Below, one piece after another: positions 3,621 through 20,147 of a stretch of DNA of 34,326 bases. The translations under genes were made by a program, and so were the position numbers. Below the pieces are notes generated by a model. It was not told the DNA's origin. It saw nothing but the letters and a program-made list of their open reading frames with translations, and did no database searches. Source of the DNA: a virus; IMG/VR virus record IMGVR_UViG_3300021961_000319, positions 1 through 34,326 of that record; one strand, 5' to 3'. Every line of letters starts with the position of its first letter. Position 1 is the first letter of the stretch.

Positions 3621-4445
3621 ATGGCCGCTTATTTTGACGGGTCAACGTCTTATGGTTACGAGGCAGGGCTTCTGCCGTCCACGGCATTACCGTTTACTTT
3701 ATCTTGCTGGATTAAACCAGATTCAACTACGGGGTCTGACCGAGGGCTAGTCCGGCTTGGGTCTCTTGCTTCAGCAGCCGCAAACAGAGAATGTGCTCGC
3801 CTTTACCTTCAGAGTACCGGCCGTCTAGCATTTCAAATTGCTAACAATAGCGGTGTCAACAACGCTTTCGGCGGCACAGTCAATGGAGGGCAATGGAATC
3901 ATTGTTTAGGGCTTTATCCCCAGTTGAACTTAAAACTTGCGTACTTAAATGGAACCCCAGGCTCACCAAATACTGGCATTAGGGCGCTCCCTACCGACAC
4001 TACAAATCTTGCAATTGGGGCGTCCGTTTATAACTCACTTGGGACCATTGACGAATACTTTGCCGGGGCTATAGCCCACGTTGCCATTTGGGATGAAGCC
4101 CTTTCCACCGGAGAAATAGTCGCGTTGGCCTTGGGGAGCGCGGACCCGAAAACCATTCGTCCTAACGCACTTAGGTATTACAACCCGCTTGTTACGCCCA
4201 TAAACGCGCCCTCCGAAACCGTAGTAGACCATGCGTGGTCTTCGTGGAATCAAGCAAAATATCCATACATTAACGGAGACCCTGGGTCCCAAAGTTTTGT
4301 AAACATCGCCCGCACGAGTGATAACCCACACATCGTACTTCGCCACCCTCTACGGCAAGAAACAAAAATTGCATTTGAGCCGGCAGCGCAGAATAATTCG
4401 CCAATCTTCTATCATCAGCGACAGCAACAAGGGATGGCCTCATGA
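3621..4445 (+). CDS. LamG / concanavalin-like jelly-roll virion protein
   Basis: The product is 274 residues. Residues about 1-170 read as a LamG-type beta sandwich: 'YFDGSTSYG' start, 'PFTLSCWIKPDS' strand, a 'GGQWNHCLG' centre with the conserved Trp, and 'FAGAIAHVAIWDEALSTGEI' end. This is the usual order for laminin-G/concanavalin domains in phage and bacterial surface proteins, which bind carbohydrate. The last 100 residues are less ordered and end in a Gln-rich tail. In a receptor-binding module it may bind host glycans. The stop overlaps the fibre gene (ATGA). Family confidence is good; ligand unknown. Confidence 0.75.
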   Translation: MAAYFDGSTSYGYEAGLLPSTALPFTLSCWIKPDSTTGSDRGLVRLGSLASAAANRECARLYLQSTGRLAFQIANNSGVNNAFGGTVNGGQWNHCLGLYPQLNLKLAYLNGTPGSPNTGIRALPTDTTNLAIGASVYNSLGTIDEYFAGAIAHVAIWDEALSTGEIVALALGSADPKTIRPNALRYYNPLVTPINAPSETVVDHAWSSWNQAKYPYINGDPGSQSFVNIARTSDNPHIVLRHPLRQETKIAFEPAAQNNSPIFYHQRQQQGMAS

Positions 4446-5719
4446 TTTTCCTGAAGCAAAGCACAGCCTCCCAAGAAGTCCCGCTTGGCTATTTTGTTGA
4501 CTCGACGGACGGCAACACTGAAGAGACTGGGCTGACCATCGCGAACACGGACATCAAGGTCTGGAAAACCGGCGCTACGACCCTGGCGAACAAGAACAGC
4601 GGTGGCGCTACGCACATCTCCAATGGCATCTACTACGCGGTCCTTGATGCCACGGATACGGATACTCTCGGGCCTCTGGTCATTTTTGTGCATGTTTCAG
4701 GGGCTCTAACAGTCCGACTCGAATGTTGTGTGCTGGCCGCGAATGTATATGACTCCCTCGTGGGCGCAACAGATAAGCTGGACGTAAATACGGCAGAAAT
4801 CGCGGGGTCCAATGTTTCGACAAGTTCGGCTCAGATTGGCGTCAATGTGGTCAACGCTGGCGGCACTGCTTGGGCTTCTGGCGCAATCACTTCTGGCGTG
4901 TTTGGTTCTGGTGCTATCACTGCCGCTGCTATTGCTGCTGATGCTATCGGGGCGTCCGAGTTGGCGGCGGATGCGGTCACAGAAATAGCCGCAGGCGTCT
5001 GGAACTCTGCTAGGGCGACTTACACCTCCGCAGGAAGCTTTGGCGAGGGCGTGGCGAGCGTGCAGGGCAACGTCACTGGTTCTGTCAACAGCGTTACGAC
5101 TGGCGTGACGGTCACGACCAACAACGACAAAACCGGCTACAACCTGACCCAGTCCTTCCCAACCAACTTCGCTGCGCTTTCCATCACCGTAGGCGGGGAG
5201 GTGACGGTTGGAACAAACAATGACAAGACTGGCTACACCCTAACGGTCACACCCCCGACTTCCGCAGACATTGCTGATGCGGTTTGGAATGAAGATTTGT
5301 CGGGCCATGCGACAGCCGGAAGCGCAGGCAAGGCATTGTCTGACGCGGGCGCTGCTGGAGACCCGTGGAGCACTGCGGTGCCAGGTGCTTATGGCGCAGG
5401 AACGGCTGGCTACGTCCTTGGTACCAATGTTGATACTACAATCAGCAGCAGAAGCACCCTGACTGCCGCAGCCGTCAACACTGAGGTTGTTGATGCCCTG
5501 AATACAGACACCTATGCAGAGCCGGGCAGCGGAGCCCCTGGCGCCACAATCAGCCTGGCCCAGAAGATTGGCTACCTCTACAAGGCTTTCCGCAACAAGG
5601 TCACGCAAACCTCGACCGAATACACCTTGTACGCGGACGACGAATCCACTGCGCACCAGAAGGCTACGGTCAACGACGACGGCACGACCTTCACCCGAGG
5701 TGAAGTTGGCGGCCCCTGA
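4442..5719 (+). CDS. Tail fibre / collar-type structural protein
   Basis: The product is 425 residues. The N-terminal 100 residues form a beta domain with 'EVPLGYFVDSTDGNTEETGL', a pattern I know from podovirus fibre or baseplate proteins. The centre is Ala/Gly-rich low-complexity sequence. Two copies of 'TNNDKTGYxLT' occur near residues 225 and 260. The C-terminal part has 'ADAVWNEDLSGHATAGSAG', a recurring phage fibre or collar motif, and a final compact domain. It overlaps the LamG-like gene upstream and the 152-residue gene downstream. It is likely part of the host-recognition apparatus; which trimer or collar it forms is not visible. Confidence 0.75.
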   Translation: MIFLKQSTASQEVPLGYFVDSTDGNTEETGLTIANTDIKVWKTGATTLANKNSGGATHISNGIYYAVLDATDTDTLGPLVIFVHVSGALTVRLECCVLAANVYDSLVGATDKLDVNTAEIAGSNVSTSSAQIGVNVVNAGGTAWASGAITSGVFGSGAITAAAIAADAIGASELAADAVTEIAAGVWNSARATYTSAGSFGEGVASVQGNVTGSVNSVTTGVTVTTNNDKTGYNLTQSFPTNFAALSITVGGEVTVGTNNDKTGYTLTVTPPTSADIADAVWNEDLSGHATAGSAGKALSDAGAAGDPWSTAVPGAYGAGTAGYVLGTNVDTTISSRSTLTAAAVNTEVVDALNTDTYAEPGSGAPGATISLAQKIGYLYKAFRNKVTQTSTEYTLYADDESTAHQKATVNDDGTTFTRGEVGGP

Positions 5720-7455: not shown

Positions 7456-8723
7456 TGGTCATCACCATTCCCTACAGCCCTCGGGAGCTGCAGGCCGAGT
7501 ACCACGGCAGAACCCAACGCTGGGCCATGACTGTCTGCCATAGACGGTTTGGCAAGACAGTGATGGTCTTGAACGACCTCATCCGGGATGTGCTGACCTG
7601 CCCCAGACCGAATCCCCGAGCAGCTTACCTCGCGCCCTTGTACCGGCAGGCCAAGGCGGTCAGTTGGGATTATGTGCAGGAGTTCACGCGGGGCATACCT
7701 GGGATGACCTATAACCAAGCCGAGCTGCGGGCTGACTTCCCCAATGGCGGGAGGCTGAGCCTCTACGGCGCTGACAGTCCTGACAGTCTCAGAGGAATTT
7801 ACCTCGACGCCGTGGCCTTGGACGAATACGCCCAAATGTCCGGCAGGGTCTGGGAGGAAATCATCCGCCCTACCCTCAGTGACAGAAAGGGCCGGGCCAC
7901 CTTCATCGGCACTCCCATGGGCCATAACTCCTTCTATAAGCTCTTCGAGGCCCACAAGGACGACCCGGACTGGTTCATCCGAGTCCACCGAGCCAGTGAG
8001 ACCGGCTATGTGGATGCTGAAGAGCTGGCAGACGCCCGCAAGCAAATGTCCGAGGAGCGGTATGCGCAGGAGTTTGAGTGTTCATGGACTGCTGCGATTC
8101 AGGGCAGCTACTACGGGCGGCTCCTTGAGGAAGCTGAGACGAAAGGCCGCATTAGAACCATCAATGCTGACCCTGGTTATCCGGTCAGCACCGCATGGGA
8201 CTTAGGCATCGGGGATTCCACGGCAATCTGGTTCTTCCAGCACATCGGCCCCGAATACCGGTTCCTTGACTACTACGAGGCGTCCGGCGAGGCCCTCTCC
8301 CATTATGCTCAGGTTCTGCTGGAGAAGGCCCGCGAGAACCGCTGGACATATGGGGAGCACATTCTCCCGCATGATGCCCGGCAGCGGTCTTTGGACACCG
8401 GGAAGGCCCGAGTGGACACCCTCGCAGAACTGTTAGGCACGAGGCCAGTGGTGCAGGCTCAACATAAGATTGAGGATGGCATCGAGGCGGTACGCAAGAT
8501 GCTGCCAAACGCATGGTTTGACCGAGGGAACTGCTCGCACGGGCTGGATACCCTGAGGCACTATCGCGCTGAATATGACGAGGTCAGGCGGACATTCAGG
8601 TTGAGGCCAGTGCATGACTGGGCAAGCCATGGCGCTGACGCTTTTCGGGTCTGCGCAATGCACAAACCTGTCAAAGCCCAGCGGTGGGAGCCGCTCAAGT
8701 ACAGCAACAAAGGAATTTTGTGA
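7455..8723 (+). CDS. terL: Terminase large subunit (packaging ATPase and nuclease)
   Basis: The product is 422 residues from a GTG start. Residues 28-35 form a Walker A variant (CHRRFGKT). A Walker B with 'LDAVALDE' ends at D123-E124, and a coupling 'GTP' lies near 152-154. The C-terminal nuclease fold shows acidic positions in 'AWDLGIGDST' near 248-253 and in 'DWASHGADAFR' near 387-395, as in RNase H-like terminase nucleases. The enzyme translocates DNA into the prohead through the portal and cuts the concatemer. Length fits a compact TerL. The GTG overlaps the TerS stop and is preceded by GAAGGCGG. Confidence 0.92.
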   Translation: MVITIPYSPRELQAEYHGRTQRWAMTVCHRRFGKTVMVLNDLIRDVLTCPRPNPRAAYLAPLYRQAKAVSWDYVQEFTRGIPGMTYNQAELRADFPNGGRLSLYGADSPDSLRGIYLDAVALDEYAQMSGRVWEEIIRPTLSDRKGRATFIGTPMGHNSFYKLFEAHKDDPDWFIRVHRASETGYVDAEELADARKQMSEERYAQEFECSWTAAIQGSYYGRLLEEAETKGRIRTINADPGYPVSTAWDLGIGDSTAIWFFQHIGPEYRFLDYYEASGEALSHYAQVLLEKARENRWTYGEHILPHDARQRSLDTGKARVDTLAELLGTRPVVQAQHKIEDGIEAVRKMLPNAWFDRGNCSHGLDTLRHYRAEYDEVRRTFRLRPVHDWASHGADAFRVCAMHKPVKAQRWEPLKYSNKGIL

Positions 8724-8842
8724 ACGTCCAATATCTGGCCAAGCGCCTAGCGGAATTGCAAGCCCAGATTCAGGCGCTCATAATCCGCATTGACGCAATC
8801 GAAAAACGCAAGGGGCCGAGAAAAAATGGCAAAGCTGACTGA
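8720..8842 (+). CDS. Small coiled-coil protein between terL and portal
   Basis: This 40-residue frame opens with GTG at 8720, overlapping the TerL stop, and ends inside the portal gene, whose ATG is at 8826. It reads as a single amphipathic helix with regular Leu/Ile spacing (residues 5-32) and a basic tail. An AAGGA site precedes it. The overlaps on both sides fit the gene style of this genome and support it being translated. Function unknown. Confidence 0.6.
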   Translation: MNVQYLAKRLAELQAQIQALIIRIDAIEKRKGPRKNGKAD

Positions 8843-11300
8843 CTCAGAAATCCTGTCTCGGGCTCAGTCTGAAGTCACCTCCACCATCGGGCGGTGGGGC
8901 TCCGAAATCTCCAATGAGCGGGCGGCCGCCCTCGATTATTATCTTGGCGAGAAGTACGGCGATGAGGTGGACGGGCGCAGCCAGGTTATCACCCGCGAGG
9001 TTATGGAAACGGTTGAATGGATTCTGCCGAGCCTCATCCGTATTTTCTCCGACGCCGACAATATGGTGTCTCTTGACCCCGTGGGGCCAGAGGATGAGGA
9101 GCAGGCCGCACAGGAAACTGATGTGGTCAATTATGTTTTCTGGAAACAGAATAAAGGCTTCTACAACGTATACACCTTCCTGAAGGATGCACTTCTGTCC
9201 AAGACCGGCATCTTGAAGGTCTGGTGGGAAGACAGGGAAGAAGAGGAGCGCGAGGAATACGAGGGCATCGACCCTTTCGGCCTTGAGCAGCTTTTGGCAG
9301 ACCCCACCGTTGAGCGCGAGCCCATCGACATCAGTCAGGACGAAAACGGGGTCATCTCCGTTGCCTTCAAGACCAAGCGCAAACGCGGTCAGATTCGGAT
9401 TGAGCCCGTCGCCCCTGAAGACTTCGGCATCACGCGCGACGCCTCCAGCCCGTATGCAAAGGACGCCCGCTCCTGTTATCACCGGGTGCGCAAGACGAAG
9501 AGCGAACTGCTTGCGGCCGGATACGACCGGAACCTGGTCAACTCCCTACCCACCTCTGACGACGTTGAGACGCCGGAAGAGATTGCCCGCGACCGCTTGG
9601 ACGATGAGGGCATGGCCCCTGTCTATGTCCGAGACGAATACTGGATAACGGAAGTCTATTTCTCTGCCGACCGCAACGGCGACGACATGGATGAGCTGCT
9701 GAAAGTCACATACGCCGGAGACCCGGACGGCGGCGGCTCCGCAACCCTGCTGGACATCGAGGAAGTGGACCGCATCCCCTTCTGCACCGCCTCGCCCATC
9801 ATTCTGACCCACAAGTTTTATGGGCTCTCCATCGCTGACCTCACGATGGATTTGCAGCACATCAAGTCAACTCTGCTGCGTCAGGTACTAGACAACACCT
9901 ACCTTGCAAACAACTCCCGCACGGTGGTAAATGACGAATTTGTGAACATGGATGACCTGCTGACCTCGCGGCCGGGCGGGGTTATCCGGGTGCGGGGCGA
10001 GCAGCCAGTCGGCGCATACCTGACCCCGCTCCCGCACTCTTCGCTGCCTCAAGAAACCTTCCCGCTCATGGAATACATAGACGGGCAAATCAAGCAGCGC
10101 ACGGGTGTTGGCGATGAGGTTGCGGGGCTGGACAAGAACTCCCTTGCGAACGTAAACACCGGAGTTGCTGCGCTGGCGTATGACGCAGCGCGCATGAAGA
10201 TTGAGCTTGTCGCCCGCATCATGGCTGAAGTGGGCTTCGTGCCCCTGTTCCAAGACATCCATCAGCTCCTGAGCATGCATCAGGACCAGGCCATGACAGT
10301 CAAGCTGCGCAATCGCTGGGTTCAGGTAGACCCCGGCCGCTGGCGTGACCGTGTAGACATGACCGTGAAAGTCGGCATGGGCAACGTCTCCCGCGAGCGC
10401 AGGGTTATGGGCCTGCAGCAGGTGATTCAGCTCCAGCAGGGGCTTGCGCAAGCAGGCGCTATGGGCTCCCTCATCAACCCAGAGAATATGTGGATGGCCC
10501 ACAAGGAACTGATGGACGCAATGGGCCTTGAGCCAGAATTGTTCTTCATGGACCCCAAAACCGCTCCGCCCCCGCAGCCTCCGCAGCCTGACCCGCAGCT
10601 TGAAGTTGCCGCAATGCAGGCGCAGGCCATGATGCTTGACGCTCAGAGCAAGATGGCGCGGGCGCAGGTAGACGCCCAGAAGGCGCAGGCCGAGCAGCAG
10701 ATGGCGCAGGCGCAGATTGCCCTGAAGGCCCGAGAGTCCGAGCTGAAGAACCAGATTAGCCAGCTCGAAGTGCAGTTGAAGGGCATGCGAGACAAGTCAG
10801 ACTCTGACAACAAGATTCTGTCGATGGAAGTCGAAATGAAGCGTCGGGCGACCGAGAACAACCTGAAGCTGCTGCAGATTCAGTTGGCCGAGATGTCCAA
10901 GCAGAAGGACCGCGATTTGGACAAGTACAAAGCTGACCAGGACGCCTCGATTGAGCTGGCCAAGATGACCATGCAGGAGGCCAACGACATCCTGCCCGGC
11001 GGCATGCTGGTTGAGGATGATTCCCTGCGGAAGATGTTTGCATTCGGCGATGAGGAGCCGGAGACAATTGTCGAGGAGGTGATTACGGTTGAGCCAGAGC
11101 CAGAGGCCGCAGTGGTCATTGATGTGCCGGCTGAACCGCCTCCGCCCGCTCCCGCTGAAGTAGCCATGGCCTCCATGGTTGAAGCCCTTGTGGACCTCCA
11201 GAGACAACTGAACGACCTGCAAGGCCGCGAGGTTGAGCGTGTTGTGAACCGCGACAAGAACGGCCTGATTGTCTCCATCACGGAGAAGCGGCGTGCGTAG
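8826..11300 (+). CDS. Portal protein, P22-type, with long C-terminal coiled coil
   Basis: The product is 824 residues. The N-terminal part (about 1-560) matches the P22-type portal pattern: an early 'RWGSEISNERAAALDYYLGE' segment, an acidic wing region, 'ITHKFYGLSIADL' and 'QRTGVGDEVAGL' in the stem region. From about residue 590 to 720 there is a long Gln/Ala/Lys coiled coil, then an acidic Pro-rich tail. Portals form the dodecameric DNA gateway at one capsid vertex and the coiled-coil end can form a barrel inside the head. P22 portal is 725 residues, so this one is somewhat longer. The ATG at 8826 precedes the conserved N-terminus. Confidence 0.88.
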   Translation: MAKLTDSEILSRAQSEVTSTIGRWGSEISNERAAALDYYLGEKYGDEVDGRSQVITREVMETVEWILPSLIRIFSDADNMVSLDPVGPEDEEQAAQETDVVNYVFWKQNKGFYNVYTFLKDALLSKTGILKVWWEDREEEEREEYEGIDPFGLEQLLADPTVEREPIDISQDENGVISVAFKTKRKRGQIRIEPVAPEDFGITRDASSPYAKDARSCYHRVRKTKSELLAAGYDRNLVNSLPTSDDVETPEEIARDRLDDEGMAPVYVRDEYWITEVYFSADRNGDDMDELLKVTYAGDPDGGGSATLLDIEEVDRIPFCTASPIILTHKFYGLSIADLTMDLQHIKSTLLRQVLDNTYLANNSRTVVNDEFVNMDDLLTSRPGGVIRVRGEQPVGAYLTPLPHSSLPQETFPLMEYIDGQIKQRTGVGDEVAGLDKNSLANVNTGVAALAYDAARMKIELVARIMAEVGFVPLFQDIHQLLSMHQDQAMTVKLRNRWVQVDPGRWRDRVDMTVKVGMGNVSRERRVMGLQQVIQLQQGLAQAGAMGSLINPENMWMAHKELMDAMGLEPELFFMDPKTAPPPQPPQPDPQLEVAAMQAQAMMLDAQSKMARAQVDAQKAQAEQQMAQAQIALKARESELKNQISQLEVQLKGMRDKSDSDNKILSMEVEMKRRATENNLKLLQIQLAEMSKQKDRDLDKYKADQDASIELAKMTMQEANDILPGGMLVEDDSLRKMFAFGDEEPETIVEEVITVEPEPEAAVVIDVPAEPPPPAPAEVAMASMVEALVDLQRQLNDLQGREVERVVNRDKNGLIVSITEKRRA

Positions 11301-12575: not shown

Positions 12576-13541
12576 ATGGCAGTCCCAACCGGAACTTATC
12601 AGCGTTATGCCGCAGTCGGCATGCGCGAAGACCTTGAAGACATCATCTACGACATTTCGCCCATGGACACCCCGTTCATGTCGAATGTCAGCCGCAAGAA
12701 GGCGACTTCGACCTTCCATGAGTGGCAGACGGACTCTCTGGATGCTGCGGTTTCGACCAATGCCCAGATTGAAGGCGACGACGCCAACACCAATACGGCG
12801 GTTGCGACCTCCCGTTTTGGAAACTATACGCAGATTCTGACCAAGGTTCCGCGTGTTTCCGGCACCCTGCGCAGCTCCGACACGGCTGGCCGCCGCGACG
12901 AACTAAGCTATCAGATTGCCAAGCGTGGCCGTGAGCTGAAGCGTGACATGGAAGCCTCTTTCCTTGGCACCCAGGCTGCGACTGCTGGCGCTGCGGCTTC
13001 TGCCCGCGTCATGGCTGGTGTGGCTTCGTGGCTGTTCGGCAACACCGTTGCCAATGGCACCGCCGCGACCACTGCCGTTGTCACCTCCGGCGCGCCTGTG
13101 ACGGCCCCGACCTCTGGTACGGCTGCGACCTTCAGCGAATCCATGCTGAAGAGCGTCATCAAGCAGTGCTGGGATGACGGTGGCAGCCCCAACCTGATTA
13201 TGGTTGGTTCCTTCAACAAGCAGATTGCCTCTGCGTTTGCTGGGATTGCGACCCAGTACCGTGACAACCAGCAGACTGGTCCTGCGACCATCATCGGCTC
13301 GGCTGACATCTATGTTTCCGACTTCGGTCAGCATCAGATTGTTGCCAACCGCTTCATGCCCTCTAACCAGGTATATGCGCTCGATATGGAGTATTGGTCT
13401 GTTGCTTACCTCCGCCCGATTCAGAATGTTGAACTGGCGAAGACGGGTGACTCCGACCGCAGCATGATTCTGGCTGAATGCACGCTGGTGGCCGACAACC
13501 CGAATGCCTCGGGCAAGGTCTACGCGGTCACGACCTCGTAA
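12576..13541 (+). CDS. Major capsid protein (SU10/DUF5309-like, HK97 fold)
   Basis: The product is 321 residues. The start 'YAAVGMREDLEDIIYDISP' followed by 'DTPFMSNV' is the signature of the SU10/DUF5309 family of major capsid proteins. Other family-like features are 'STFHEWQTDSL' near residue 50, 'KRGRELKRDMEASFL' near 117, and a C-terminal 'AYLRPIQNVELAKTGDSDR' segment. These subunits form the icosahedral shell with an HK97-type fold. An AAGGAG site precedes the ATG. A strong terminator follows 15 bases after the stop, consistent with a need for high, bounded expression. Confidence 0.88.
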   Translation: MAVPTGTYQRYAAVGMREDLEDIIYDISPMDTPFMSNVSRKKATSTFHEWQTDSLDAAVSTNAQIEGDDANTNTAVATSRFGNYTQILTKVPRVSGTLRSSDTAGRRDELSYQIAKRGRELKRDMEASFLGTQAATAGAAASARVMAGVASWLFGNTVANGTAATTAVVTSGAPVTAPTSGTAATFSESMLKSVIKQCWDDGGSPNLIMVGSFNKQIASAFAGIATQYRDNQQTGPATIIGSADIYVSDFGQHQIVANRFMPSNQVYALDMEYWSVAYLRPIQNVELAKTGDSDRSMILAECTLVADNPNASGKVYAVTTS

Positions 13542-13555
13542 GGAACCTCAACCTT

Positions 13556-13582
13556 GGGAGGGGGCAGCCCCTCCCCTTTTTT
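13556..13582 (+). terminator. Strong intrinsic terminator after the capsid gene
   Basis: GGGAGGGG (13556-13563) pairs perfectly with CCCCTCCC (13568-13575) around a four-base loop, followed by C and six T. It is one of the two strongest terminators in the window. Downstream genes continue in the same direction after only 12 bases, so it probably limits rather than stops late transcription, making capsid the most abundant message. Confidence 0.9.
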
Positions 13583-13593
13583 GGAGCAAGAAA

Positions 13594-13737
13594 ATGGCTG
13601 ACAAAGGCATGAAGAAAATTAAGTGGATGGACGGCGGCCGTAAAACGGTGACAAAGACCTACAAGGCCGGTAAAATGTTACCTGTTGATGGTCAGGGCTG
13701 TCAGAAGGGCGGGAAGCGTGGCAAGAAGGCTTATTGA
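13594..13737 (+). CDS. Small basic Lys/Gly-rich protein
   Basis: The product is 47 residues, very basic, with a 'MKKIKWMDGGRKTVTKTYKAGK' type composition, a single Cys near its end and a Lys/Gly tail. GGAGCAAG precedes the ATG. It lies just after the capsid terminator. Its 3' end overlaps the next gene in another frame. Function unknown; charge suggests nucleic-acid or head-interior association, which is inference. Confidence 0.65.
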   Translation: MADKGMKKIKWMDGGRKTVTKTYKAGKMLPVDGQGCQKGGKRGKKAY

Positions 13738-14074
13738 GCACGACCCTCTTTCAAAGACGAGCGTTTACCACTCCTACGATGACCTGACGAAAGAGACGGT
13801 CATCGAGGAGATTCAGGATGTATCTCACATTCTGGAGGTGAACAAGAACACCCAGAACCACGACGTTGGGGGTGGCGGCGGACTAAACGAGTATTCCCGC
13901 CAGGGAATCAAGAATGGCTGGTGGCACGTTGCCAGCATCCCAAATTCCGTCATCATGAAGTGGAAAAAAGAGCATGGCGTGGATGTGTTCAACAAGGACC
14001 ATACAAAAGCCATCACGCGACTACTGAATGACCCGGCATGGCGGTATCTGAGAACAGGAACGGGCCGAGTGTAG
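13718..14074 (+). CDS. Conserved-type phage structural-region protein
   Basis: Taken from the GTG at 13718 the product is 118 residues. It contains 'EHDPLSKTSVYHSYDDLT', 'IQDVSHILEVNKNTQN', a Gly-rich loop, 'WHVASIPNSVIMKW' and the end 'NDPAWRYLRTGTGRV'. This sequence order is one I recall in podovirus structural regions directly after capsid genes, without a known function. Upstream GTG, ATG (13688) and TTG (13685) starts are all possible; the true start is uncertain because the conserved part begins near 13733. It overlaps the first gene of the glycan cassette by 37 bases. Confidence 0.75.
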   Translation: MARRLIEHDPLSKTSVYHSYDDLTKETVIEEIQDVSHILEVNKNTQNHDVGGGGGLNEYSRQGIKNGWWHVASIPNSVIMKWKKEHGVDVFNKDHTKAITRLLNDPAWRYLRTGTGRV

Positions 14075-15390
14075 ATTTGCAGGTTGCAGAGCAAGCCTAT
14101 GCCCGTGGGGACTTACAGTTCGCCGGGCATACCTGCTCTCAATGCCTTTCCAAAAACCCAGAGGATGTCGAGGCGCTTTTGCTCATGGCAAAGGTGCTTA
14201 TGGACACAGAGAAATCACCTCTTGCGCTGGCTCTCTCTGAGAAAATCACGAAGCTAGCCCCTAAGGACTGGCGAGGCTGGCTGCTTCGCGGAATGTGCGA
14301 AACCTCTCTCCTGCCTGGCTCACCCATGGGGTCCATGCACAAGGCAGAAAGCCTAGCCCCAGACAACCCCGCCATTCTCCGCAGCATGGCCTTTGCGTAT
14401 GTCTCGTCTTTTGACTTCAAGAAGGCAGAATCCTATGCCCGACGCGCAATCCCTCTCGAAAATCACCCACAAGGTCACGTTGCCCTCGGCTTCGCCCTCC
14501 TGCACACGGAGCGATGGGGAGAGGGCTGGGACGAGTACGCTCACGGTATGGGGCACCAAGCTTTTCGAGAGAAGCAGGACTGGGGAATTCCTGAATGGAA
14601 TGGGGAAAAAGGGCGCCTGCTTGTCTATGGAGAGCAAGGGCTTGGGGACCAGATTGCCTACTGCTCAACCCTCCGAGACGCAAACGTCACACAGCTTGTC
14701 TGTCACCCCAAGCTCAAGGCCATGTTCACAGAAACCCTTGACTGCGAGGTGCATGGCGACCAGTTCAAGAAGGAGATTGACTGGCCTGTCCGGGCTGACT
14801 TTGCAGTGTCGATGTCCGGCTTGCAGCGATGGCACAGACGCAAGCGGGAGGACTTCACTGGTGAGCCTTACTTAGTCCCGCACCCCGGAAAACAGTTCCA
14901 GTGGAAAGCCCTTCTCAGAGCTTTAGGCAAGCGCCCCAAGATTGGGATTGCATGGACCGGAGGAACGGTAGGCGCCCACGGATGGTATTCCAGAAATATC
15001 ACCCTGATGGACCTGAAGCCCATCATCGAGGGCGTGGACGCGGATTTCATTTCGCTGGAGTACAAGGACCGCAGCGAGGAGATAGATGCGTCTGGGCTGA
15101 CTGTGCATGACTTTCCATGGGGCACGCAGACGGACAATTACGAAGACACCATCGCGCTTATCTCCTGCCTTGATGCAGTAGTGTGCGTCCCCACGACGGC
15201 TTACCATGCGGCCGGGGCTCTGGGGGTTCCGGCAATTGTCATGGTCCACGATACGCCCCACTTCCATGAATGCACGCCCTGGTGGAAATCTGTGCAGTTC
15301 TTGGACAGGAAGGGCGATTACATAACAAAAGTGTTAGAGAGGTTGAGGCAATGCGTATCTTTATCGGAGTCGACCCCCGTAGTCCCATAA
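14038..15390 (+). CDS. TPR-containing glycosyltransferase (GT-B, GT41/GT9-like)
   Basis: The product is 450 residues. Residues about 10-165 form three to four TPR-type helical repeats. The second half has the pattern of TPR-linked GT-B glycosyltransferases: 'LLVYGEQGLGDQIAYC' near 198-213, 'PKIGIAWTGG' near 300-310, 'LISCLDAVVCVPTTAYHAAGALGVPAIVMV' spread over about 378-407, then 'PWWKSVQFL'. In O-GlcNAc-transferase-like proteins the TPR part selects a protein substrate and the GT-B part transfers sugar from a nucleotide donor. Donor and acceptor are unknown. It opens a four-gene overlapping cassette. The start (ATG 14038, or TTG 14077) is not firm because no good ribosome site is visible. 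Confidence 0.8.
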   Translation: MAVSENRNGPSVDLQVAEQAYARGDLQFAGHTCSQCLSKNPEDVEALLLMAKVLMDTEKSPLALALSEKITKLAPKDWRGWLLRGMCETSLLPGSPMGSMHKAESLAPDNPAILRSMAFAYVSSFDFKKAESYARRAIPLENHPQGHVALGFALLHTERWGEGWDEYAHGMGHQAFREKQDWGIPEWNGEKGRLLVYGEQGLGDQIAYCSTLRDANVTQLVCHPKLKAMFTETLDCEVHGDQFKKEIDWPVRADFAVSMSGLQRWHRRKREDFTGEPYLVPHPGKQFQWKALLRALGKRPKIGIAWTGGTVGAHGWYSRNITLMDLKPIIEGVDADFISLEYKDRSEEIDASGLTVHDFPWGTQTDNYEDTIALISCLDAVVCVPTTAYHAAGALGVPAIVMVHDTPHFHECTPWWKSVQFLDRKGDYITKVLERLRQCVSLSESTPVVP

Positions 15391-16001
15391 GCTACAACGT
15401 CCTGCAGTGGTCCATCGTGCGGAATGCTTCCAAGCCCGTGCAGATTGTGCCGCTGGTCCTGCCGCAGCTCCCGATTAAGCGGCGAGGGCTTACCGACTTC
15501 ACGTTTACAAGGTATCTTCCCCCATACCTCTGCAACTATCGCGGCACCAGCATTTTCCTTGACGCCGACATGGTGGTTGAAGGGGACATTCACGAGCTGG
15601 CAAGCCACATGGACGGCAAGCACTCGGTCTATGTTGCGAAGCACCAGCAGCGTTTTGAGTGGCCCTCAATGATGGTGTTCAACAATGAAAAGTGCCAACG
15701 GCTCACCCCAGAGTACATCGAAGACGAAGATAACGCCCCTCAGTCTTTTGATTGGGCAGATTCTGTCGGGAACATACCCCCGGAATGGAACTTCTGTGTC
15801 GGGCACGATGACTATGCTCCAGGCGCTAAACTCATACACTTCACTCAAGGCATCCCGCATTTCGCGGAGTGCCGAGATTGTGATTACGCCGGAGCTTGGT
15901 GGTCCGCCTACAACGGAATGACGGCCAACTGCTCATGGCTTGAGCTGATGGGGAAGAGCGTTCACGCAGAGCCCGTCCTGAAGCGTCTGGGGGTCATGTG
16001 A
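15351..16001 (+). CDS. GT8-like glycosyltransferase (GT-A fold)
   Basis: The product is 216 residues. It begins with a 'MRIFIGVDPRSPISYNVLQWSI' type strand-loop-helix, followed by a metal-binding DxD motif in 'FLDADMVVEGDI' (about residues 66-77), and 'IHFTQGIPHF' near 164. This order fits GT-A transferases of the GT8 type that use a nucleotide sugar and Mn2+. It is shorter than most GT8 enzymes (250-350), so it may be a minimal domain. An AGAGGTTGAGG site precedes the ATG, which overlaps the previous gene by 40 bases. It probably adds one sugar in a pathway shared with its neighbours. Confidence 0.75.
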   Translation: MRIFIGVDPRSPISYNVLQWSIVRNASKPVQIVPLVLPQLPIKRRGLTDFTFTRYLPPYLCNYRGTSIFLDADMVVEGDIHELASHMDGKHSVYVAKHQQRFEWPSMMVFNNEKCQRLTPEYIEDEDNAPQSFDWADSVGNIPPEWNFCVGHDDYAPGAKLIHFTQGIPHFAECRDCDYAGAWWSAYNGMTANCSWLELMGKSVHAEPVLKRLGVM

Positions 16002-16603
16002 TACACCCCACCGCCGCTGTCCACCACACCGCCGTCATTGGCAAGCACACCTATATCGGCCCGTTCTGCGTCATCGGCCCTAACGTCACCATCGGCTCAA
16101 ACAATCGACTGATGGCCCATGTGTGCATTGGTCTGCCTGCCCAGTGGCGGGGCAAGGAATCCAAGGGCACGGTGCGCATAGGCAACAACAATGTGTTCCA
16201 CGAGCGGACTTCTGTCCACGCCGCCCCTGAGAAGGGCGAGAGCACTATTGTCGAGGATGACTGCTACGTCATGGCAGGGTCAGTCATCAACCACGACTGC
16301 TGGATTGAGGCGGGCGTCACCATCTGCGGGAACGTGAATGTGTCTGGGCATTGCCGGGTCATGGCTGGGGCGAATATCGGCATGAATGCGGTTATCCACC
16401 AGAAGCAGGTGATTGGCTCCTACGCCATGGTCGGCATGGGCGCTGTAGTGACCAAGCTTGCAAATGTGGAGCCTGGCTCCGTCTTTGCAGGGAATCCGGC
16501 TCGATTCATGAAAAAGAATGTGGTGGGGCTGAATCGGGCAAATGTGACGCTCGACAATCTGGAAGAAGAGACCCGCCGCTTCGAGGCTCTTCGACATGAT
16601 TGA
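15998..16603 (+). CDS. LpxA-like left-handed beta-helix acyltransferase
   Basis: The product is 201 residues from a GTG overlapping the previous stop. It shows hexapeptide repeats through residues 2-165 and family positions resembling UDP-N-acetylglucosamine O-acyltransferase (LpxA): 'TVRIGNNNVFHERTSVH' near 58-74, 'VINHDC' with the likely catalytic His at 99, 'IGMNAVIHQKQVIGSYAMVG' near 127-146, and 'GLNRA' near 177-181. LpxA enzymes move a hydroxyacyl chain from acyl carrier protein to a UDP-sugar. The usual 260-residue LpxA has a larger C-terminal helical domain, here reduced. Substrate is unknown; it may acylate a UDP-sugar used by the flanking transferases or compete with host lipid A synthesis. 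Confidence 0.78.
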   Translation: MIHPTAAVHHTAVIGKHTYIGPFCVIGPNVTIGSNNRLMAHVCIGLPAQWRGKESKGTVRIGNNNVFHERTSVHAAPEKGESTIVEDDCYVMAGSVINHDCWIEAGVTICGNVNVSGHCRVMAGANIGMNAVIHQKQVIGSYAMVGMGAVVTKLANVEPGSVFAGNPARFMKKNVVGLNRANVTLDNLEEETRRFEALRHD

Positions 16604-17834
16604 GAATCTCCTTGAAAACCTGAATTTGTATCTGAAAACGCGGGACAGGAGCTTCTATTCCCGCAAGTGGGAGCTGGTGACTAAGGCCGTCGAAGCCTTC
16701 AATAAAGTCAACTTTGAAGGCTTTGCATTTCTGTATAACGCTGCTTTCTCCTTGGCATGGCAGTTACAGGACGATTTCAAGCAGGACCAAGTCCTAATCC
16801 GGGACCGCATCATAAAGCCCGCACAAGCTTTCCTGAGCCCCGACCCGCTTCCGGGCGGACACAATACCGCTTGGCTGGTAAACAACGCACAGAGGGGCAT
16901 GTACGCGCCCTGGAAGCATGTGGAGGGATTCCTTGCCGGCCAGAAGCCCTGTTACGTCTACATCTTCTCCTACGCTGCCCCGGAGGCCGTCAAGGACATT
17001 GAGGCCATGGGTCACACGGTCAGGGTCTTTGAAGGCGAAACGGGGGAAAAAGTCGCTGGCATACGCGCGGCCTGTGAACTGGACAAGATTGGCACCTTGA
17101 TTGCAGAGACCTATACCGCCATCCCCTTGACTGTATTTGCTATGCGGTCGGCCCCCGTCCAGATGTACTTGTCCCCAGGCTTTCAGCTCTTCCCGGCGGA
17201 TGTGACCCTCATTCCCGAAACCCAAGATGTGATGGTCAAATCCTTTGAGATTGTCCCATCGCCCATGCGTCACGATGCCTTATTCCGGGCAGTAGAGCCC
17301 AAGGCCCGAGAATACCCCCTAATCTTTGGCTGCCTGTCCCGATACGAGAAAATGTCTGTGGACTACCTCGGGACCGTGGGCCAGATTTTAGACGCCACCG
17401 GCGGGGTATTTATGGCCTATGGGCGAGGAGACCTGCCCGACGTACACCCCAAAATCATCAAGTGCGGGATTGAGAAACCAGAGGTAGCTCTAGGGGCCAT
17501 GGATGTTTATCTGGACACCTTCCCGACCTGCGGAGGGGTGAGCGTCTGGGAAGCGATGGCCGCCCAGGTTCCCGTGATTACTTTGGCCTCGGAAACCATG
17601 CAGAGCTGGAACAACCTGAAACCTTATGTGACTGCCTCAAAAAAGCTGTACATTGAGGCTGCCATACAAGCGTCTAGTGAAACGCCACTCAGGAGGCTTA
17701 TAATTGAGCAAGGTCTTACTCAGGCCCGGAAGTTTGCAGATGTGCAAAAGGCCGGGGCGGCACTGGACAGGATTATAGATAAATGGCAATCACGAACTAT
17801 TCCGAACTCCAAACCGCCGTCTCCAACTGGCTAG
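16596..17834 (+). CDS. GT-B glycosyltransferase, OGT/HMW1C-like C-terminal domain
   Basis: The product is 412 residues. The N-terminal 90 residues are helical. The middle holds a Rossmann-like half ('YIFSYAAPEAVKDIEAMGHT' near 118-137). The C-terminal half contains the donor-binding pattern 'FGCLSRYEKM' near 246 and 'DVYLDTFPTCGGVSVWEAMA' near 303-322, which resembles GT41 (OGT, SPINDLY, HMW1C) enzymes. These glycosylate proteins in the cytoplasm. The gene overlaps the LpxA-like gene by 8 bases and the adaptor gene by 52 bases. With the TPR-GT it makes a pair of protein-type glycosyltransferases. Confidence 0.75.
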   Translation: MIENLLENLNLYLKTRDRSFYSRKWELVTKAVEAFNKVNFEGFAFLYNAAFSLAWQLQDDFKQDQVLIRDRIIKPAQAFLSPDPLPGGHNTAWLVNNAQRGMYAPWKHVEGFLAGQKPCYVYIFSYAAPEAVKDIEAMGHTVRVFEGETGEKVAGIRAACELDKIGTLIAETYTAIPLTVFAMRSAPVQMYLSPGFQLFPADVTLIPETQDVMVKSFEIVPSPMRHDALFRAVEPKAREYPLIFGCLSRYEKMSVDYLGTVGQILDATGGVFMAYGRGDLPDVHPKIIKCGIEKPEVALGAMDVYLDTFPTCGGVSVWEAMAAQVPVITLASETMQSWNNLKPYVTASKKLYIEAAIQASSETPLRRLIIEQGLTQARKFADVQKAGAALDRIIDKWQSRTIPNSKPPSPTG

Positions 17835-18436
17835 CGCGGTCGAGCCTCACGACTGCTCAGGTTTCCGAGTTTATCTCCCTAGCGGAGAGTCTTTTCAAGC
17901 GCCAGCCCCTGCCAAGAACCTCGCCGAATCTGGGAGGGGTGCGCGGCAACAAAACCCGCATGTCTGGCACCCTCACATCCGGCACCAATTCCCTTGCCCT
18001 CCCCGCAGACTTTGCGGAGATGGATGCCCTATCCCTGACCACTGACCCAGAGACGCCGCTTGTCTTTGTGTCCCCAGAGCAAGTCCGAAACTTCCGACGG
18101 CCTGGCACCGGCAAGCCCAACTATTTCAGCATCTCTGATGTGATTGAGTTTGATGTCACGCCCGACTCGGCCTATGCCTACGCCTTAAGCTATTGGCCGA
18201 GCATTGCGGCGCTCAGTAATTCCAACACCACAAACTGGCTGCTGACGAAGTACCCAGACGTCTATTTGTCTGCCTCAATGATGTGGGCGAACCGATATCT
18301 CATGGAAGATGAGCAGTCGTCAATGTGGGCCGGCCAGTACAAGGAAGCTGCCGCGATGGCCTCTCAGACATACTTCCGGTCCCGCCAATCCCAGGGGCCG
18401 ATTAGCATTCAACTGCAGGTGAAGCCTTATGAGTGA
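17783..18436 (+). CDS. Head-tail adaptor / tail-tube-A-like protein
   Basis: The product is 217 residues. It opens with 'NYSELQTAVSNWLARSSLT' and 'EFISLAESLFKRQPLPRT', then a beta region with 'ALPADFAEMDALSLTTD', and a C-terminal helix pair. This is the pattern of podovirus adaptor proteins (P22 gp4 / T7 gp11-like) that form the ring joining portal to tail nozzle. It follows the glycan cassette and precedes the fibre and nozzle genes. The ATG at 17783 lies inside the previous gene; a site is not obvious, suggesting coupling. Confidence 0.8.
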   Translation: MAITNYSELQTAVSNWLARSSLTTAQVSEFISLAESLFKRQPLPRTSPNLGGVRGNKTRMSGTLTSGTNSLALPADFAEMDALSLTTDPETPLVFVSPEQVRNFRRPGTGKPNYFSISDVIEFDVTPDSAYAYALSYWPSIAALSNSNTTNWLLTKYPDVYLSASMMWANRYLMEDEQSSMWAGQYKEAAAMASQTYFRSRQSQGPISIQLQVKPYE

Positions 18437-20147
18437 CGTACAAACTTGGTCAACGACTGCTGCTAGCAACAACTCTGCTGCGCCTAACGGCTTCCCTGAA
18501 GGCATGCCGCCAAGCGGCGTGAATGACGCTGCGCGCGAGGTTATGGCTGCTGTTGCCAGGTATCGCGAGGACACCGACGGCGTAAATACCAGTTCCGGCA
18601 CTGACACCATCACGCTCTCATCCAGCCGCACTATGACGGCCTACGCGCAGGGCGATATGTACACCTTCAAGGCCGGCGGAACCAACACCGGAGCCACCAC
18701 TTTGAACGTGGATGGCTTGGGGGCCAAGGATGTGCAGTTCAACGGCGCGGCCTGCACTGGCGGAGAGATTATCACCGACCTGATGTACACGGTCGTTTAC
18801 GACGGAACTCAGTTCCAGTTGATGAATGCTGCCTCGTACCCAGCCATTGACATTGAGACGCTGGAAGTCACAAACATCAAGGCCAAGGATGGAACGGCTT
18901 CCGCCACTATCGCGAACTCTACTGGCGTAATGACGATAGCCAGCTCGGTGCTTACAACCACAGACATTAACGGCGGAACGATTGATAACGCGACGATTGC
19001 AACCTCTGACATTACTGTGGGGGCCGGCAAAACGCTTGATGTCTCGGCCGGTGCTCTTACCCTTGCCAATGACCAAATCAGTGGAGACAAAGTAGAGGGC
19101 GGCACCATTGCGGCCACGACCATTACCACGCTGACTTCGACAACTGGCAACATTACTACGGTTAATGCTACCACTGTTGATACCACTAACATCGAAGTCA
19201 CCAACCTCAAGGCCAAGGATGGAACGGCTTCGGCCACTATCGCCGATAGCACTGGGAAGGCGACGTTTACAAATTTACTTACGGTTGACGTAAGCGCCCA
19301 AGGCAGCGGCTATCCCGGAATAGAAATTAAAAGCGGGCCGGATGACTCGGCAGGAATTAGGCTTAATTATGACGGCGTTGCCCATGCTTCATTTCATTCG
19401 TGGGGCTCTCTTGACGGTACATATTTAGGAACCCAGACCAGCACAAAACTTAAGTTGATGACAAATTCTACGGAAAAAGTTGTTATCGATGAAGTTGGCG
19501 GTGTTGGAATTGGCACAACTGCCCCCGCCACCCTTCTAGACATCGCCGCCAGCAACAACGGCCTGACCTCTGACACCGCAAACAACACGGTGCGGTTTAC
19601 TGATACTGATACGACGACTATCGCTAATCAGCCCATTGGCAAGATTGAGTTTTATACTTCTGACTCAGGGAATGCTGGAGTTGCTGGGCATATTTTAGCA
19701 ACTGCTCGCGGCAATGCTGGCGGCGGGAATATAATATTTGGTGCAGCCCCAAATGGCGGTTCTCCTTCCAACATTTTTCAAGTTACTAATCTTGGTGCGT
19801 TTATTTTAAACAGCGCCGCAACAATTGGCTATACCATTGGGGCCGGTGCTGCGGTTACGCAGACGACAAGTCGCACTACGGGCGTCACGATTGATGCCCC
19901 CTGCGGGGCCATTACGCTTGTATCAGCAGCTGGCTCAACAACTATTCAGTCTTTCACGGTCACAAATTCTGTTGTGAGTTCCACGGATACAATTATCGTC
20001 AATCAAAAATCAGGCACAGACCTTTATAGGATTTATGTCACAGCAGTAGGAACTGGAAGTTTCAGAATAAGCTATGCAACGCTTTCTGGCACGACTACAG
20101 AACAACCGGTATTTAATTTCTGTGTTATTGCGGGTCGCGCTTCATGA
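18429..20147 (+). CDS. Tail fibre / tail collar-like protein with internal repeat
   Basis: The product is 572 residues. Its N-terminal 130 residues resemble phage collar or fibre attachment domains ('SGVNDAAREVMAAVARYRED', 'TTLNVDGLGAKDVQF'). The centre is a long Thr/Ala/Ile-rich beta repeat region with two near-identical 20-residue segments containing KAKDGTASATIA. The C-terminus has 'GVGIGTTAPATLLDIA', common in phage and bacterial fibre heads. It likely forms trimeric fibres binding host surface. Note the separation from the other fibre at 4442-5719. The start overlaps the adaptor stop by 8 bases. Confidence 0.78.
   Translation: MSDVQTWSTTAASNNSAAPNGFPEGMPPSGVNDAAREVMAAVARYREDTDGVNTSSGTDTITLSSSRTMTAYAQGDMYTFKAGGTNTGATTLNVDGLGAKDVQFNGAACTGGEIITDLMYTVVYDGTQFQLMNAASYPAIDIETLEVTNIKAKDGTASATIANSTGVMTIASSVLTTTDINGGTIDNATIATSDITVGAGKTLDVSAGALTLANDQISGDKVEGGTIAATTITTLTSTTGNITTVNATTVDTTNIEVTNLKAKDGTASATIADSTGKATFTNLLTVDVSAQGSGYPGIEIKSGPDDSAGIRLNYDGVAHASFHSWGSLDGTYLGTQTSTKLKLMTNSTEKVVIDEVGGVGIGTTAPATLLDIAASNNGLTSDTANNTVRFTDTDTTTIANQPIGKIEFYTSDSGNAGVAGHILATARGNAGGGNIIFGAAPNGGSPSNIFQVTNLGAFILNSAATIGYTIGAGAAVTQTTSRTTGVTIDAPCGAITLVSAAGSTTIQSFTVTNSVVSSTDTIIVNQKSGTDLYRIYVTAVGTGSFRISYATLSGTTTEQPVFNFCVIAGRAS
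18864..18925 (+). repeat. Intragenic fibre repeat, copy 1
   Basis: This 62-base segment matches 19194-19255 with only scattered changes and encodes the motif VTN-(I/L)-KAKDGTASATIA. It lies within the fibre gene. The pair is 330 bases apart in the same frame, so the intervening beta repeat unit was probably duplicated. Confidence 0.8.
19194..19255 (+). repeat. Intragenic fibre repeat, copy 2
   Basis: Second copy of the segment at 18864-18925, in frame within the fibre gene. Changes are mostly silent or conservative, except near the 3' end. Recombination between copies would delete exactly 110 codons without a frameshift. Confidence 0.8.

Follow-up and report, generated by a model that had tools for sequence, protein, structure and literature searches.

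A putative protein-glycosylation cassette in the head-tail gene block of an uncultured SU10-like phage

In this study, we analyzed the record IMGVR_UViG_3300021961_000319, taken whole (34,326 bases; referred to as the window), which derives from an uncultured short-tailed phage and is perhaps an incomplete contig. Between the genes for its major capsid protein and its adaptor protein, four intact and overlapping open reading frames (ORFs) on the + strand form a cassette (14038-17834), whose genes are named G1, G2, G3, and G4 in gene order. By profile and fold comparison, they encode a transferase with tetratricopeptide repeats (TPR) and a GT-B glycosyltransferase (GT) domain from the family of FlmG-like proteins, a remotely GT8-like transferase, a short LpxA-like acyltransferase, and a divergent relative of the GT41 family. 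A clade of SU10-like phages has retained G1 and G2 as an ancient core, with G3 and G4 among the variable add-ons. We propose that the cassette may be a cytoplasmic, late-expressed pathway of protein glycosylation, with a virion protein as the most likely acceptor and with add-on genes diversifying the glycan of each lineage. We give this reading an even chance of being right.

The four cassette genes

The cassette genes and their two flanks are as follows:
12576-13541, + strand: SU10-type major capsid protein, flanking the slot on its upstream side (Pfam SU10_MCP, E 9.7e-96; PHROG 1328, E 1e-100)
14038-15390, + strand: G1, TPR repeats (about residues 12-170) and GT-B transferase domain (about 190-445), FlmG-type family
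15351-16001, + strand: G2, GT8-like (GT-A, FLDADM motif) transferase, from Pfam, a GT8 structure profile, and the alignment
15998-16603, + strand: G3, short LpxA-like left-handed beta-helix acyltransferase with GTG start, His99 at the catalytic position
16596-17834, + strand: G4, divergent GT41 (OGT/HMW1C-like) transferase, Lys252 on the GT41 lysine
17783-18436, + strand: SU10-type adaptor protein, flanking the slot on its downstream side (Pfam SU10_adaptor, E 7.7e-29; PHROG 2941)

The overlaps amount to 4 bp for G2/G3, 8 bp for G3/G4, and 52 bp for G4 and the adaptor gene. Besides the capsid and adaptor proteins, the SU10-type virion genes of the window include the portal gene (Pfam, E 2e-187).

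G1 has a length of 450 amino acids (aa) and carries TPR repeats (Pfam TPR_19, E 2e-7). Its AlphaFold2 model (predicted local distance difference test, pLDDT, 85) has ten helices and, after them, a GT-B fold. Among solved structures, Foldseek matched this model best to SPINDLY, to O-GlcNAc transferases, and to related enzymes (E-values of 1e-9 to 1e-6; TM-scores by query length mostly of 0.3-0.45); these fold matches are TPR-GT protein transferases. Despite the GT41 structures among these fold matches, assignment of G1 to GT41 was ruled out by profile (hhalign 0.1% to the GT41 alignment). Also, comparison of the transferase domain with GT9 gave no clear membership (hhalign 1%). With FlmG-like proteins, hhalign yielded 99.9% (E 2e-33) for this domain, and the full-length G1 profile matched TPR-GT proteins of 594-608 aa from bacterial genomes (E 1e-43 to 1e-51). 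The FlmG-like comparison set consisted of Phenylobacterium proteins found by the G1 profile search, not of the characterised FlmG of Caulobacter crescentus, a protein of 596 aa whose N-terminal TPR domain binds flagellin and whose C-terminal part is a GT-B domain (PMC7591256). The FlmG-like genes start 1-2 kb from flagellin genes in three of the four Phenylobacterium genomes; in the fourth, the distance is about 15 kb. In the G1 alignment, residues 150-450 contain 36 of the 39 invariant columns and the first 150 residues only three, a pattern that fits a conserved catalytic domain joined to a variable acceptor-binding domain. Judged by these profiles, G1 belongs to the TPR-GT family containing the FlmG-like flagellin glycosyltransferases.

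The longest ORF of G2 spans 15270-16001, but the ATG at 15351 is preferred as start codon since relatives align from there. With the Pfam GT8 model, G2 reached an E-value of 8e-4 and 19.4 bits, which is under the cut-off of 24.3, and its profile matched a solved GT8 structure with an E-value of 0.003. The DxD motif (D71xD73) is invariant in the alignment of homologues. Taken together, G2 is probably a remote GT8-like transferase.

For G3, hexapeptide repeats were clearly detected (Pfam Hexapep, E 2e-20). The nearest solved structure is 8e62 (8e62_A), a short acyltransferase for UDP-N-acetylglucosamine (UDP-GlcNAc; E 7e-29), followed by LpxA enzymes. His99 of G3 aligns with the conserved histidine of the His-Asp-Cys set of LpxA, which we take to be the catalytic histidine. 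G3 has 201 aa and is without most of the C-terminal domain of LpxA, and it did not reach the curated LpxA cut-off (132 bits against 226), so that we call it LpxA-like and not LpxA. In two related loci, G3 and G4 are fused and encoded as one polypeptide (L012:8119-10026, 635 aa; L174:2439-4271, 610 aa). This fusion ties acylation to the GT41 step instead of lipid A and is the best clue to the role of G3, as it suggests that the enzyme acts on the donor or the product of G4. Lipid A was considered as target and is disfavoured by the fusion, the missing C-terminal domain, and the failed LpxA cut-off.

G4 had no match in Pfam, including PF13844 (Glyco_transf_41), or in PHROG. A profile built from six sequences matched the Thermobaculum OGT (TtOGT; E 6e-5), and profile-profile comparison with bacterial GT41 proteins gave hhalign 94.8% (E 5e-8; 256 columns) versus 0.1% with GT9. 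In a Foldseek search with the weak G4 model, TtOGT, ApNGT, and AaNGT ranked first. Sequence profile, profile-profile comparison, and fold search agree in linking G4, as a divergent relative, to GT41 (OGT/HMW1C). Lys252 is invariant in the six homologues and aligned on the GT41 lysine, which, by our reading of the N-x-x-x-K motif, would be equivalent to the essential lysine K665 of SPINDLY (PMC9715652). The LDTFP nucleotide-binding region is retained. In the nucleotide loop, Thr is replaced by Val or Ser. The N-terminal half, which covers active-site residues such as His495 of SPINDLY, is not alignable to GT41, and the N-terminus is short and helical with no TPR detected. In 563 genomes of two classes, profile searches with G4 gave no matches other than GT41-type proteins, for the most part aligned over the nucleotide-binding region (best E 4e-18), and a pattern scan covering 84,980 genomes of bacteria and archaea found no G4 homologue. 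The closest cellular relative found is a 598-aa GT41-like protein (L286, 1189-2985; E 4e-18); its genome belongs to the same class as a Phenylobacterium, and a gene for a repeat-rich protein that looks RTX-like by eye is located nearby.

A sequence-only reading of the window had described four overlapping glycan genes as one unit between head and tail genes, and the intact ORFs and the SU10_MCP and SU10_adaptor flanks agree with this layout. Profile and fold searches, set beforehand as its test, returned glycan enzymes and not unrelated folds. For G1, the predicted TPR and GT-B fold stood, whereas its assignment to the GT41 type gave way to the FlmG-like family. The GT8-like transferase was recovered as a remote relative below the Pfam cut-off and the LpxA-like acyltransferase by its hexapeptide repeats below the LpxA cut-off; the second transferase proved to be OGT/HMW1C-like as proposed. 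The reading had also regarded the combination as one not known from described phages, in line with which a search of a 50,697-record phage collection found no G4 homologue.

Relatives, slot contents and selection

Relatives were retrieved by the capsid protein (80 contigs), by G2 (80 contigs), and by G4 (five contigs). In capsid relatives outside the group of the window, the capsid and adaptor genes are mostly a short distance apart (about 0.3-1.6 kb), and one or two small genes often occupy this interval; in one annotated relative, the slot gene is named glycosyltransferase. Within the group of the window, every readable slot contains G1, followed in most cases by G2. In the L040 and L117/L124/L139 groups, the G2 homologue is not located in the slot but upstream of the portal gene. 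Further slot genes, located behind or between G1 and G2, are lineage-specific and include several kinds of S-adenosylmethionine (SAM) methyltransferases, FkbM methyltransferases, and GT9-like and other transferases. Besides the window, G3 and G4 were found in other IMG/VR contigs, namely in L002, L171, and L172 and, as fusion, in L012 and L174. The identity of G4 to that of the window is 95% in L002 and 73-74% in L171 and L172, and the latter two also keep the gene-overlap arrangement including that of G4 with the adaptor gene. L003 is a contig-edge fragment of the same phage type.

For every pair of G1-G4 genes tested (against L002, L172, and L171; G1 also against L004), the ratio of nonsynonymous to synonymous substitution rates (dN/dS) was 0.04-0.19, comparable to the capsid and adaptor genes. 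These values exclude decaying or accidental ORFs and, together with the gene order recurring in other contigs, show that the cassette is not a product of chance. The comparison with syntenic relatives, set as a second test of the sequence-only reading, did not refute it: they retain the cassette, and selection acts on it. The four-gene set is not fixed, and only G1 and G2 form the core.

Two observations concern single slots. In L092, a gene for a DNA N6/N4 methylase (1396-2274; E 7e-56) follows directly behind G2 in the cassette. In L085 (Sinorhizobium phage phiM5), the capsid-to-adaptor region contains a gene for an SGNH hydrolase (7728-9038), which according to the record was found in the proteome of the particle; proteins encoded in this region can therefore be particle-associated.

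Between the capsid gene and G1, two further features were detected:
13556-13575, + strand: terminator-like hairpin directly 3' of the capsid gene (pattern scan; 17-locus comparison)
13685-14074, + strand: small conserved protein preceding the slot (PHROG 3982, E 1e-20)

The total number of terminator-like matches in the window was not above that in shuffled sequences. A post-capsid hairpin with T-rich tail was found at the same site with other sequence in about 14 of the 17 G1-positive loci compared; its place is kept while its sequence changes, as though the structure were under selection. Just behind the capsid gene of the window, a short ORF for a lysine-rich peptide (47 aa; 13594-13737) lies between its hairpin and the gene for the PHROG 3982 protein. 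The PHROG 3982 protein itself had 63 ORF matches among the loci retrieved from relatives. The pattern scan revealed no convincing promoter upstream of G1, which makes transcription of the cassette as part of the late transcript probable. A search for anti-phage-defence families gave no match. Two long, repetitive Thr/Ser/Ala-rich proteins without Pfam matches (4442-5719 and 18429-20147) are probably of tail-fibre type, and they are possible candidates for glycan acceptors.

Proposed pathway and rival explanations

In the proposed pathway, the TPR domain of G1 would recognise the acceptor protein and its GT-B domain would attach the first sugar, as FlmG does on flagellin. G2 would add a further sugar and G4 would transfer a sugar to either the chain or the protein itself, while G3 would acylate the donor sugar or the G4 product, before or after transfer. 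Donor sugars would come from host nucleotide sugars, as the cassette contains no gene for sugar-nucleotide synthesis. The acceptor would be a capsid or tail protein made at the same time; the overlap with virion genes and the core following the capsid lineage make virion proteins the most likely choice. Each phage lineage may thereby have its own glycan, varied by swapping the acyltransferase, methyltransferases, and extra glycosyltransferases. Gene order, families, selection, core conservation, and the G3-G4 fusion are observed directly; from these, we infer activity, order of the steps, sugar, acceptor, timing, and benefit.

Several points weigh against this pathway. The position of the cassette can reflect history instead of function, and the acceptor and the enzymatic activities are putative. 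The G1 family is large and little characterised, with up to 26 matches per bacterial genome and few members characterised, so that membership leaves the substrate unfixed. The G4 model has low confidence (pLDDT 62). Also, a capsid loop (residues about 160-185) is Thr/Pro-rich (TTP...PT) in G1-positive phages and rarely so in G1-negative relatives; it was set aside as evidence for a glycosylated site and is only a lead, because the split between G1-positive and G1-negative phages follows deep branches in the tree of capsid proteins, which confounds the association.

The main rival acceptor is a protein of the host surface, such as flagellin, which is the substrate of FlmG. The cassette would then modify the host surface (flagellin, pilin, lipopolysaccharide, or capsule) late in infection, which could for example prevent re-adsorption of released virions or exclude superinfecting phages. 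FlmG is the nearest characterised kin of G1, the profile-matching FlmG-like genes are located near flagellin genes, and G3 resembles LpxA; the add-ons include FkbM methyltransferases and GT9-like enzymes, which are also found in surface-glycan clusters. However, a late position, after the capsid gene and overlapping the adaptor gene, is odd for remodelling a surface before lysis, the fusion of G3 to a GT41-like enzyme speaks against lipid A, and no membrane-bound transferase, flippase, or ligase was found in the cassette by Pfam. We regard modification of the host surface as unlikely.

It is more doubtful still that the slot is just a permissive site for horizontally acquired morons without common function, in which G1 and G2 are kept by positional inertia. 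Slot contents do differ widely among relatives, with a DNA methylase and unassigned genes among them, but G1 is present throughout a deep group, the add-ons with family matches are mostly of glycan type, and strong purifying selection acts on all four genes. Moreover, in several phages whose slot is without G2, a homologue is located upstream of the portal gene on the same contig. Glycosylation of phage DNA bases, i.e. hypermodification against restriction, is the least probable of the explanations and in our view very unlikely. Phage glycosyltransferases that act on DNA are known, as stated in a passage of PMC12619734, and the L092 slot carries the DNA methylase. Partner enzymes such as a hydroxymethylase or a base kinase were, however, not found by Pfam among the window ORFs scanned, on a contig that may be incomplete, and the TPR acceptor-binding domain and the GT41 kinship point to protein acceptors.

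Extending the proposed virion glycosylation to the whole SU10-like clade, we tentatively suggest, with less confidence than for the window itself, that these phages possess a dedicated glycan locus with an FlmG-like and GT8-like core and swappable tailoring genes, which would give the particles of each lineage a glycan of their own, here an acylated one. The LpxA-GT41 fusion would then acylate and transfer in one polypeptide.

Comparison with known systems

Phage-encoded virion glycosylation is already known, with a precedent in mycobacteriophages. New are the phage group, the position between head and tail genes, the set of FlmG-type, GT8-like, LpxA-like, and GT41-like enzymes, the LpxA-GT41 fusion, and the constant core combined with swapped tailoring genes. 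Such a cassette is not described in the open-access full-text literature searched. If the proposal is true, glycan coats of tailed phages would extend beyond the mycobacteriophages and be a long-standing trait of environmental podoviruses that keeps diversifying, and the locus would behave like a miniature O-antigen cluster. It would offer a simple and testable system for the choice of protein acceptors by TPR domains and would supply compact protein glycosyltransferases, as well as a fusion of acyltransferase and GT41 enzyme that was not found in the collections searched.

The nearest annotated phage cassette is that of Manatee Spring phage MW202512, known from its deposited annotation only, in which a TPR-GT gene, a GT8-like gene, and an FkbM methyltransferase gene separate the capsid gene from the tail genes; it differs by identities of 30-38% and by having no G3 or G4. 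For mycobacteriophages such as Che8, glycans on capsid and tail proteins are reported in the passages of PMC11256854 and PMC12619734 that cite Freeman et al. 2023, where phage-encoded transferases are thought to glycosylate these proteins. This resembles our proposal, but the phages are unrelated, the enzymes are different, and virion glycosylation is a prediction for the phage described here. In addition, the corresponding part of PMC11256854 places the transferases of the Che8 relative Maravista near the 3' end of the genome, whereas those described here are located inside the head-tail block.

At the level of single enzymes, G3 shares the left-handed beta-helix repeats and the histidine at the catalytic position with LpxA and 8e62, and is unlike LpxA in its 201 aa, in missing most of the C-terminal domain, and in its score (132 bits versus 226). 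G4 aligns to the catalytic half of the GT41 family (O-GlcNAc transferase, SPINDLY, HMW1C/NGT) and keeps the lysine and the LDTFP region, but is without a Pfam Glyco_transf_41 match or detected TPR and is fused to an LpxA-like domain in two relatives. FlmG of C. crescentus (PMC7591256) has the same arrangement of an N-terminal TPR domain and a C-terminal GT-B domain as G1, which in contrast is shorter (450 versus 596 aa), encoded by a phage, and located in a virion module.

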